A DNA stretch of 45,438 nucleotides, from positions 1 to 45,438 of the forward strand of contig JAGCDZ010000057.1 of NCBI GenBank assembly GCA_017650905.1. The letters are read 5' to 3'. Made by a program: the position numbers and the translations under genes. This stretch comes from Prevotella sp. (GTDB lineage: Bacteria; Bacteroidota; Bacteroidia; Bacteroidales; Bacteroidaceae). Positions within the stretch are counted from its first letter, which is position 1. Every line of letters starts with the position of its first letter. The notes under the pieces are model-generated. The model searched no databases, had not been told where the DNA came from, and saw only the letters and a list, made by a program, of their open reading frames with translations. Below are positions 38,517 to 41,198 of this stretch, one piece after another.

Positions 38517-39131
38517 ATGAAGAAAAGTATTATTGTATTAACAGCATTGCTGTTTTCTGTGAGTGCAAATGCTCAGAACGCCGTTGGCAGTTGGAGTCTT
38601 ATGCCAAAGGCCGGTATTAACATCGCTACGATGACGAACGATGATGATGCAAAGACTCGTGTCGGACTCGTGGCAGGAGCCGAAGTGGATTATCAGGCAA
38701 CACCTTTGCTTTCTGTTTCTGCAGGCGCCCTTTATTCTCAGCAGGGATCCAAAGCAAAAGTTGAGGGCATCGACGGAACCCTCAAGATGGATTACATAAA
38801 CATACCGATATTGGCAAACTTCCATGTAGCTCCGGGATTGGCTTTCAAAGTGGGTATACAACCAGGCTTCCTCGTCAATGATGAGGTTGAAGTGTCGGTT
38901 AATGGTGTTTCTGCTTCGGTAAGCCTAAAGGAATCCTATCGTTCGATGGGCGTTGATGCTGACATCTCTTCTGTGGACTTCGCAATACCGCTTGGTTTGT
39001 CCTATGAATTTAGTCATGTCGTTCTGGAAGCTCGTTATAACCTCGGTCTTACGAAAGCCATATCCATCTTAAGCGAATCCACCAAGCACAGCGTGTTCCA
39101 GATAACCCTTGGCTATAAGTTTGGATTATAA
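38517..39131 (+). CDS. Outer-membrane beta-barrel protein (PorT/OMP_b-brl type)
   Basis: A 204-residue exported barrel protein: signal peptide MKKSIIVLTALLFSVSANAQ, then WSLMPKAGINIATMTNDDDAKTRVGLVAGAEVDYQATPLLSVSAGALYSQQGSK, typical of the eight-stranded PF13568-type barrels, which end in a hydrophobic C-terminal strand (FQITLGYKFGL). Function of such barrels is mostly unknown. It is encoded downstream of the BlaI/BlaR1 pair with its own promoter, and faces the repeat-rich convergent region. Confidence 0.85.
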   Translation: MKKSIIVLTALLFSVSANAQNAVGSWSLMPKAGINIATMTNDDDAKTRVGLVAGAEVDYQATPLLSVSAGALYSQQGSKAKVEGIDGTLKMDYINIPILANFHVAPGLAFKVGIQPGFLVNDEVEVSVNGVSASVSLKESYRSMGVDADISSVDFAIPLGLSYEFSHVVLEARYNLGLTKAISILSESTKHSVFQITLGYKFGL

Positions 39132-39198
39132 CGTGACAAAAAGACGGAGTGAATTGTCGTGGGCTTAGTTAAGTGAGGACAGAATGATTTGATAGTAT

Positions 39199-39259
39199 AT
39201 TCCCAGGCTGGGAATTTTTTGTTCCCAGTGTGGGAACATTTCATTCCCACGGTGGGAAT
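39199..39259. repeat. Three 17-bp palindromes at 22-bp steps
   Basis: ATTCCCAGGCTGGGAAT (39199-39215), GTTCCCAGTGTGGGAAC (39221-39237) and ATTCCCACGGTGGGAAT (39243-39259). Starts are exactly 22 bp apart, with 5-bp spacers. The outer base pair changes together (A/T versus G/C), and so does the inner one in copies one and three (G/C versus C/G). Confidence 0.9.
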
Positions 39260-39280
39260 AAATAGTAGGTCTTAAGGGCA

Positions 39281-39348
39281 AAATAAGACGGGCTTATTTG
39301 GCAATAAGAGGCATCTTATGATAAAAAAGAGCATCTTATCGCAGATAA
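39281..39348. repeat. Overlapping ATAAG/CTTAT palindromes
   Basis: AAATAAG...CTTATTT (39281-39299), ATAAG...CTTAT (39304-39319) and TTATCGCAGATAA (39336-39348), with GCATCTTAT repeated at 39311 and 39331. Confidence 0.6.
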
Positions 39349-39355
39349 TCCCTCA

Positions 39356-39564
39356 TCCCTCACATAATCTTCGGAAACGCCTTTGTACAAAGGGGTTGTG
39401 GCATGTGAGGGGTGTTTTGAATCCCTCACAAATCCCTCACTTAACCCTCACATCCGAATCAACATAAAGATTAACCATGTGAGGGAAGATGTGAGGGATT
39501 TGTGAGGGATGAAATCTCTGAGATTCCTTTATTTAAAGGGATTGCGGAAGATTTATGTGAGGGA
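39356..39564. repeat. Long imperfect inverted repeat of CCCTCACA/TGTGAGGG words with two cores
   Basis: Left arm 39356-39453, right arm 39477-39564, loop of 23 bases. The central part is near perfect: 20 bases at 39421-39440 pair with 39491-39510, and CCCTCACAT (39445-39453) pairs with ATGTGAGGG (39477-39485). Further out, each arm contains a palindromic core in opposite orientation: CCTTTGTACAAAGG (39380-39393) in CGGAAA...AAAGG, and CCTTTATTTAAAGG (39526-39539). TCCCTCACAT (39356) and ATGTGAGGGA (39555-39564) close the ends. Confidence 0.85.
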
Positions 39565-39605
39565 TTGAGACATTTTCGTAAAAACGCATTGTTCCCAGAG
39601 TGCTA

Positions 39606-39671
39606 TAGTATGACACTAAACGCCCTCTAGTATGACACCAAAGGGCGTTTAATATGATAGTAGAAGGGTTG
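39606..39671. repeat. TAGTATGACAC repeats at 22-bp steps, with a stem-loop
   Basis: TAGTATGACAC at 39606 and 39628, and the weaker TAATATGATAG at 39650: starts exactly 22 bp apart. TAAACGCCCT (39617-39626) pairs perfectly with AGGGCGTTTA (39642-39651). The stem-loop lies 24 bases past the symporter stop and may also act as its terminator. Confidence 0.75.
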
Positions 39672-39674
39672 TGG

Positions 39675-41198
39675 CTACTTATAGCACTCGAAGATTGTAT
39701 CGACGGTCTGCTTGGGAAGTTTCTTTGTCAAGAGGCTGACAATCCAGACTACTGGGAAGCCACCCATCATCGCGATAGCACCGCAGTTGATGGGGTTGAT
39801 GGGATTGCCAGCGAGCATATTGATAACCGTCAGTCCTACGCCCCAGATGAAGCAAGCCCAGACAGAGGCTGTTGTGACACCACGCCAGTAAAGACCCAGC
39901 ATGAACGGTGCGAGGAAAGCACCAGCCAACGCACCCCAAGAGATACCCATGAGCTGGGCAATGAACGTCGGCGGATTCAGGGCGATGAGCAAGGAGATGA
40001 CGATGAAGAACATGATAAGCACGCGCATCACCACCACCTTTCGACGCTCAATCTTCTCAGCCACGATATCGTCGATAGTTCCATCCTCCACTTCGCCAGG
40101 CAACGACTTCTTGTCGCGATAGATAAGGTCGAGTGTCATCGTTGACGAAGAGGTGAGCACCAGTGAGGCCAGCGTCGACATAGAAGCTGAAAGCACCAGC
40201 AGCACCACTAGGGCGATGAGCACATCAGGCAGGGTGACGAGCATAGCAGGCACAATCGAGTCGTAAGCGATCTTGCCTGTAGCCTCATTGATGACGGGTT
40301 CGTAGAGACGGCCGAAGCCACCCAGGAAATAACAGCCACCAGCCACGATGAAAGCGAATATCGTAGAAATGACCGTACCACGCTTGATGGCACTCTCGTC
40401 GGTAATCGAGTAGAACTTACCTACCATCTGGGGCAAGCCCATCGTACCTAACGACGTCAGAATGACCACACCCAACAGTCCCCACGGATCAGGACCGAAC
40501 CACGAGGCAAAGCCACCATTCACAGAAGGATCGGCATCAGAGGGAATGACTGCAAGTTTGTCGATAGCAGCCGTCAGACCACCCTGCGCATTCAGCACGG
40601 CGAGAATCACGGCCACAATACCGAAGAGCATGATAATGCCCTGAATGAAGTCGTTCATGGCCGTTGCCTTGTAACCGCCGATGATGACATAGACGGCTGT
40701 AAGGATAGACATGATGATGACACAATACTCATAGGGGATATCAAAGCCCATCTCAAAAAGACGGGAGATGCCGCTATAGACACCAGCGGTGTAAGGAATC
40801 AGGAACACGAAGGCGATGACGGAAGCCACAACACGCAGACCCTGATCGCTGAAACGAGTGCCGAAGAAATCTGGCATCGTACGCGACTCGATATGCTGCG
40901 TCATCAGTTTGGTGCGACGACCAAGGATGATCCAAGCCAAAAGAGAACCGATGATGGCATTGCCGATACCAATCCAGGCACTCGACATACCGTATTTCCA
41001 TCCGAACTGTCCGGCATAGCCCACGAAGACAACAGCCGAGAAATAAGAAGTACCAAAGGCAAAGGCCGTGAGCCATGGGCCTACAGCACGTCCACCCAAT
41101 ACGAATCCGTCAACACTTCTGGCCTGCTTACGTGAGTAAATTCCCACACCTACCATCACGACCAGGAAAATTATCGTCAATAAAACCTTAATAATCAT
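39675..41198 (-). CDS. Sodium:solute symporter (SSS family)
   Basis: A 507-residue membrane protein with about 13 helices, LeuT-like fold. IYSRKQARSVDGFVLGGRAVGPWLTAFAFGTSYFSAVVFVGYAGQFGWKYGMSSAWIGIGN is the typical N-terminal substrate/sodium region; GGYKATAMNDFIQGIIMLFG and SASMSTLASLVLTSSSTMTLDLIYR (with the sodium-site Ser/Thr) follow. Relatives transport proline, pantothenate, sugars or organic acids; the substrate is not predictable. It follows the porin gene by 31 bases on the same strand, so the pair probably takes the same nutrient across both membranes. Confidence 0.92.
   Translation of the reverse strand: MIIKVLLTIIFLVVMVGVGIYSRKQARSVDGFVLGGRAVGPWLTAFAFGTSYFSAVVFVGYAGQFGWKYGMSSAWIGIGNAIIGSLLAWIILGRRTKLMTQHIESRTMPDFFGTRFSDQGLRVVASVIAFVFLIPYTAGVYSGISRLFEMGFDIPYEYCVIIMSILTAVYVIIGGYKATAMNDFIQGIIMLFGIVAVILAVLNAQGGLTAAIDKLAVIPSDADPSVNGGFASWFGPDPWGLLGVVILTSLGTMGLPQMVGKFYSITDESAIKRGTVISTIFAFIVAGGCYFLGGFGRLYEPVINEATGKIAYDSIVPAMLVTLPDVLIALVVLLVLSASMSTLASLVLTSSSTMTLDLIYRDKKSLPGEVEDGTIDDIVAEKIERRKVVVMRVLIMFFIVISLLIALNPPTFIAQLMGISWGALAGAFLAPFMLGLYWRGVTTASVWACFIWGVGLTVINMLAGNPINPINCGAIAMMGGFPVVWIVSLLTKKLPKQTVDTIFECYK

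Follow-up and report, generated by a model that had tools for sequence, protein, structure and literature searches.

A gene-less Prevotella hairpin as a probable reduced form of a little-known mobile element

The hairpin that lies between two genes of a Prevotella genome is genuine and stands well above chance level, and it looks like the stripped-down, gene-less copy of a little-known mobile element. The reading that we favor, with a probability of roughly 0.6, is that it is a MITE-like copy of a Prevotella element whose VapE protein binds the element's own arrays of short repeated words and uses gene-less copies in trans. The analysis established a family of such elements, their gene content, the matching of words from end to end of an element, the joint change of the word with two VapE residues, and the occurrence of copies at more than one site in a genome. 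From the sequence comparisons, each helicase seems to have a tail that is tuned to the word of its own element.

The window, that is, the whole stretch of 45,438 nucleotides that was analyzed, contains the element at 39355-39566, where two word-core-word units are combined with a central hairpin. The repeated word is ATCCCTCACA. The outer left word (ATCCCTCACATAA, 39355-39367) and its reverse complement, the outer right word (39553-39565), are 100% complementary over 13 nt. The conserved core AATCTTCGGAAACGCCTTTGTACAAAGGGGTTGTGGCA lies on the plus strand at 39366-39403, with its center CCTTTGTACAAAGG at 39380-39393, and is the best match of the core model R1 (55 bits, 6.4e-9), which was built with the window sequence included. 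A reverse-complement word at 39403-39414 closes the left core hairpin by inverted-repeat pairing. It is followed by an inner left array of three words with a period of about 11 bp (39421-39454), a short loop (39455-39476) that corresponds, by the fold and by comparison with long relatives, to the site of the gene in those relatives, and an inner right array (39477-39510) that is the reverse complement of the left one. A second, diverged core, CCTTTATTTAAAGG, is found on the minus strand at 39526-39539; it is weak (18.4 bits read on the plus strand) and has one mismatch to CCTTTNTANAAAGG. The words start 74, 12, 11 and 55 nt apart and are all of the CTCAC form (four on the plus and five on the minus strand), CTCCC, CTAAC and CTACC being absent.

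A sequence-only reading of this DNA had described a near-perfect central hairpin with a 20-bp outer and a 9-bp inner stem, and this holds: the 20-nt arms 39421-39440 and 39491-39510 are 100% complementary, and the inner 9-bp stem is present in the predicted fold. The folding check that it proposed was run, and RNA of 39340-39580 reached -108.7 kcal/mol, compared to -63.6 +/- 5.1 for 200 dinucleotide shuffles (z -8.9; 0/200 as good). The two mirrored arms that it had noticed align with a local score of 44, against a top score of 24 for 1000 shuffled arms. It was also right that the element lacks coding capacity (there is no listed ORF of at least 60 aa within 39131-39654) and that it is located between convergent genes. 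These are a PorT-like outer-membrane ORF (38517-39131, plus strand) and a sodium:solute-symporter-like ORF (39675-41198, minus strand), both named from their translations rather than by family search. Beside the element, 39603-39662 holds a further repeat, with TAGTATGACACTA-type copies and partial inverted symmetry; relatives of this type occur to the left of the copy on contig C5 described below (L016) and several in a row in another genome (L154, G048).

In the genome assembly that contains the window (2.9 Mb in 110 contigs, 71.6% complete), a single further clear copy was found, on contig C5, at first as a 69% match (E 6.7e-26). The two copies agree over 39196-39582 in a local alignment with 72.7% identity over 403 columns, and the flanks differ on both sides. 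The unit thus takes in, on its left, a triple palindrome (TTCCCAnnnTGGGAA, three times) at 39199-39259, of the same kind as is found upstream of many vapE genes. The repeat structure of the roughly 210-bp element first outlined (39356..39564) stands, but its limits do not. In the C5 copy, CCCTCAC and CCCTCCC words are mixed. Weaker matches have only the core CCTTTGTACAAAGG in common with the window copy, yet show the same layout with another word. Across the family, the words include AACTCCTAACC, ATCTCTCCC, AACCTCACTTG, ACACCTACC, ACCTCCCGTC and AACATATACC; the word varies among copies but agrees at both ends of one element.

How widespread is the family? When 150 same-genus genomes were scanned with a pattern, there were 41 matches, compared to 11 for the reversed control pattern, with about nine of the inspected contexts resembling chance matches inside genes. 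An exact 20-mer of the conserved core occurred in five stretches of the genome_contigs collection, all from Prevotella or Prevotellaceae. From 23 sequences, a covariance model was made of the 38-nt core; it matched 132/398 same-genus genomes at E<=0.1 (54/175 among those at least 90% complete), a threshold at which about 40 genomes are expected by chance, and 78/398 at E<1e-3. The expectation of an inverted-repeat family with many copies in Prevotellaceae was thus borne out, and the family is, as had been supposed, apparently undescribed. The DNA of the window element had no match in phage and plasmid collections at E<=1e-5, and a known RNA family was rejected, since the best Rfam hits in 38900-40000, to miRNA models, scored no more than 31 bits where the gathering score is 75. 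A literature search, chiefly beyond subscription titles, found no publication on such elements. Two further loci of the same genome (L028 on C44 and L034 on C107) have a CTTTGTATAAAGGCAGTCTGGGG stretch and more around it in common, perhaps a further repeat family. In two other genomes, element cores lie at contig ends (L272 and L274 in G083, L275 and L276 in G205), as if copies break assemblies.

In the longer relatives, inverted core pairs 1.2-1.7 kb apart enclose a gene, and the elements reach 1.2-2.3 kb. Four of the five long relatives that were read closely have a gene for a VapE-type AAA+ helicase between the arrays (L101, where it is shortened, L102, L103 and L104). VapE (PF05272) was matched with E 1.6e-35 in L102, 2e-37 in L103 and 1.6e-12 in the shortened L101, and the protein of L104 was identified only by its similarity (64%) to that of L103. 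These three proteins also have a C-terminal DUF3874 (PF12990), whose best match is in L101 (6.3e-10) and which falls below the curated cut-off in L102; a scan of the three gave no match to a transposase domain. The fifth relative (L100, 568-1810, G167:C3) has a frameshifted Rpn/PDDEXK_2 gene (PF12784, 1.4e-34) instead of vapE. Among 90 distinct VapE proteins of the subfamily that were fetched, C187, G188 and K189 of a Walker-A-like stretch are invariant. Among solved structures, sequence comparison found a single relative, 7pds ('Similar to D. nodosus vapE'; E 3.4e-13), which aligns over profile positions 81-280 and does not convincingly match the C-terminal region.

The full element consists of a word array, often with a core palindrome, then vapE, then a second word array, again often with a core palindrome; a triple palindrome often precedes the whole, and DUF6078 sometimes follows. 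DUF6078 (PF19555) was present in 36/90 fetched stretches, many of which end before it could show. Upstream of 86 vapE genes there were on average 4.2 hairpins, word hairpins counted in, against 1.0 in shuffled sequence. The triple palindromes upstream of vapE are of two recurrent kinds, TTCCCAnnnTGGGAA and AGTCCGnnnCGGACT. The TTCCC kind was found with DUF6078 type A in 12 cases and with none in 3, the GTCCG kind with type B in 11 and with none in 3, and other stretches with A in 8, B in 5 and none in 48. This pairing without crossover may reflect plain lineage and is not claimed as recognition.

Several elements of intermediate length have no ORF of at least 80 aa (L036, 811 bp; L083, 417 bp; L105, 489 bp). 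By reading, the spacers of several short elements seem to resemble the 3' end of vapE (for example, TCATGCAGCCTTC in L060), which suggests that the short forms arise by internal deletion. Gene-less copies had seemed to follow the 3' end of a single conserved gene; this proved wrong, because that gene is the vapE inside the element. At one locus (L043/L191, G047:C72), a metB-like gene apparently takes its final codons and stop codon (ending SLT*) from an element word.

A VapE search at E<=1e-20 found 164/249 genomes of the genus, a count that includes a longer type, about 38% identical; the subfamily itself, at E<=1e-90, was present in 116/398 same-genus genomes. Order-wide, 3/295 genomes had a VapE at E<=1e-40, one of them the genome of the window (G000), and all were 30-37% identical. 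In the phage and plasmid collections, VapE relatives occurred in 449 phage and 87 plasmid records and were all less than 60% identical. The window's own genome had no VapE of this subfamily at E<=1e-90, its best VapE-like proteins being 33-35% identical, so that, as far as this assembly (71.6% complete) shows, the window copy is an orphan.

For 84 vapE loci with enough flank, the median inverted-repeat score between upstream and downstream sides was 86.5, compared to 20 between different loci and a maximum of 25 for shuffled flanks. The score of a locus with its own flank exceeded the 95th percentile of non-self comparisons in 72/84 loci and did not in 12/84. The own partner was the best of all in 52/84, related loci sharing words.

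What are the words for? The sequence-only reading supposed that the element grew by copying a small unit. The repeats are there, but copying can be only part of the story, since the words are common to both ends and change together with residues of the element's own VapE, which suggests that they are putative binding sites rather than products of passive duplication. Word similarity correlated with protein identity (r 0.46; 70 of the 90 proteins had a usable word profile). With global identity removed, the partial correlation was 0.13 for residues 361-390, 0.11 for 381-410 and 0.26 for 401-430, at most 0.07 elsewhere along VapE, and -0.04 in the last, 4-residue window. The strongest single column was 412, followed by 155 and 409, and 12 of the 20 strongest fell within 330-424, a region that makes up 87 of the 304 columns tested.

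The word was called blind, by rule, as CTxyC, and 58/90 loci were callable (32/90 were not). Where x is C, residue 412 is H in 37, R in 3 and N in 1; where x is A, it is N in 15 and H in 2. Where y is A, residue 409 is D in 17, E in 2 and another residue in 9; where y is C, it is E in 25, D in none and another residue in 5. In the putative code, the base at x is C with His412 and A with Asn412, and, less strictly, the base at y is A with Asp409 and C with Glu409. The y rule is silent where residue 409 is neither D nor E, as in 14/58 of this first set and 11/35 of the held-out set described below. Fisher tests gave 1.7e-10 and 2.5e-10 for the residue-word tables, with R and other residues left out and kinship ignored. 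Because these values ignore relatedness, independent pairs were taken on a tree of VapE residues 1-330. For y there were ten such pairs, six with D or E on both sides, and all six agree. For x, five of seven agree, one is unchanged (L237/L260) and one is opposite (L144/L235); in the opposite pair the word was apparently miscalled, as L235 repeats TTTCCCGTA.

The rule, fixed beforehand, was then applied to 54 new loci, which gave 53 proteins after one identical one was dropped; 35/53 were callable and 18/53 were not. With H or N at residue 412 in 34 of them, the base at x was predicted correctly in 32/34. The prediction for y, possible in the 24 that have D or E at residue 409, was correct in 20/24, all four misses being E with y=A. 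Always guessing the commoner base would have given 21/35 for x and 16/24 for y. The held-out proteins are related to the training ones, so the test lends support rather than proof.

L235 and L257, from one genome, share 93% identity over 1501 bp. Compared in 60-nt steps, their vapE genes keep 90-100% DNA identity in most steps (83% in one) as far as about codon 360; from there to the gene end and across the downstream array it drops to 75, 60 and 55%, and the upstream array has been replaced too. Protein identity is 96.7% over residues 1-330, 90.0% over 331-400 and 50.0% over 401-424, and from L235 to L257 His412 becomes Asn as the word changes from TTTCCCGTA to CATCTAACC. In L123 and L124, the last 24 residues differ only at 409 (D/E), and the word changes from CTCAC to CTCCC.

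Whole units also recur at different sites of one genome. L223 and L224 are 97% identical over 1992 bp, from the triple palindrome through vapE to the DUF6078 stop, and the duplicated unit holds vapE and DUF6078 only, without integrase, packaging or capture genes. L283 and L284 are 83% identical over 653 bp, with limits read by eye. As the sequence-only reading had it, no target-site duplication (TSD) is recognizable: none was seen by eye in these two pairs or in the pair formed by the window and C5 copies, and none of 71 vapE elements had one at k=7. At k=5-6, 3/71 had a TSD-like match, against 0.76 and 0.35 in permuted data; the three (L223, L224 and L226) are related to one another, and the letters that match are the same in all and lie within the duplicated unit; a TSD is unsupported. 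No empty site could be aligned at the window locus, where gene order is not conserved and 0/20 other symporter loci had a core of at least 20 bits, nor at the metB-like 3' end or in the UbiA-like neighborhood. Of 25 short elements tried, 22 had a fetched vapE in the same genome, and six of these clearly share its word (L046, L047, L061, L106, L283 and L284; scores of 100 or more, ranked first or second among 143); the other 16 had no clear word match to a fetched vapE of the same genome.

How would such an element spread? In the favored reading, the C-terminal domain of VapE would bind the word arrays of its own element, as an initiator binds iterons, and the AAA+ helicase domain would then open or extrude the hairpins, leading to copying of the element. 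A VapE with the matching specificity would act in trans on gene-less copies such as that in the window. As the window word is CTCAC, the cognate VapE is predicted to have Asp409 and His412. Candidates for the cutting and joining of the element DNA are DUF6078 and a host or helper enzyme.

A more far-reaching proposal, which we put forward only tentatively, is that these are a new class of mobile element without a transposase of known type. The C-terminal domain of VapE would read the arrays at both ends through the residue-to-base code at 409 and 412, the domain and both arrays would be replaced together, giving rise to private lineages, and gene-less orphans would be used in trans.

It is rather unlikely that the arrays are simply operators, vapE being an ordinary self-regulating accessory gene and the gene-less copies inert remnants of recombination. 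A link between word and residue is expected from any specific binding, and the three scanned VapE proteins had no matched transposase domain; however, the matched arrays lie both downstream and upstream of the gene, the gene-less window copy retains both arrays and both cores, and whole units recur at different sites of one genome. An RNA-level role, as a bidirectional terminator or an mRNA 3'-end stabilizer between convergent genes whose sequence drifts freely as long as the stem pairs, is improbable. It fits the very stable fold, the convergent neighbors and the A-tract...T-tract ends of L100 and L101, but pairing alone would explain neither the correlation of the word with residues of the VapE domain nor the presence of the same word in arrays 1.2-1.7 kb apart, and a long T-tract is missing from the window copy. 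Similarly improbable is a conventional MITE that an insertion sequence transposase, for example of the PDDEXK_2/Rpn type, moves in trans: the terminal inverted repeats and the frameshifted gene of L100 would suit it, but VapE is present in four of the five long elements read closely and Rpn in one, and the TSD counts (0/71 at k=7, and 3/71 at k=5-6 that are related elements) speak against it. A local accident of duplication and inversion, with no family behind it, is ruled out by the second genomic copy and the family-wide core, and nothing in its favor is left after the searches.

If the association of word and residue does reflect binding, small intergenic hairpins in these bacteria of gut and rumen could be not terminators but parasites that depend on a mobile helicase. 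Prevotella genomes would then offer many DNA-binding domains naturally paired with private targets, the evolution of initiator specificity would be directly testable (for example, with L123/L124), and there would be a first function for DUF3874 and a lead on DUF6078. Neither DUF name was found in the literature searched, and the publications listed for VapE with Prevotella deal, by their titles and abstract openings, with other topics.

Among known elements, the BrickBuilt MITE of Porphyromonas gingivalis is also intergenic, with internal repeats, in a related anaerobe; it is built of a 23-nt unit repeated in tandem with no spacers, and its inverted ends are small (PMC4596501). The present elements differ in having words of about 11 bp in inverted arrays, core palindromes and vapE-carrying relatives, and the window element, judged on its word spacings of 74, 12, 11 and 55, has no 23-nt tandem unit. 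Conventional MITEs of DDE insertion sequences are gene-less internal-deletion derivatives with terminal inverted repeats. Terminal inverted repeats and gene-less copies, apparently derived by internal deletion, are seen here too, but no TSD was found, and a parent of VapE type, as in four of the five long elements read closely, would have no transposase; the fifth carries PDDEXK_2. REP/BIME elements, which are linked with RAYT, are likewise palindromic, intergenic and multi-copy, and the sequence-only reading had likened the window element to them. The likeness did not survive: REPs are 20-40 bp and fall mostly into GTAG- or CGTC-tagged groups (PMC3733652), whereas, judged by length, the shared unit here is 387 bp, with helicase-carrying relatives of 1.2-2.3 kb. 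Y1/RAYT (Y1_Tnp, PF01797) had no match in the window's own genome, an uncertain absence since the assembly is 71.6% complete, compared to a match in 5/14 control genomes.

The closest parallels are perhaps the replication systems of staphylococcal pathogenicity islands (SaPIs; Rep/ori) and phage P4 (alpha/ori-crr), in which a VapE- or primase-type AAA+ helicase with a sequence-specific C-terminal domain recognizes short iterons. The long relatives have a VapE-type AAA+ helicase as well, although the window copy itself is gene-less, and the association of word with C-terminal residues may reflect an initiator-iteron specificity of this kind. Unlike in SaPIs and P4, no integrase, packaging or capsid genes were seen in the element units that were read, those besides the L223/L224 unit being surveyed through the ORF lists of their neighborhoods. 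Here, the gene lies between two inverted arrays in a unit of 1.2-2.3 kb, and many different words are found within one genus.
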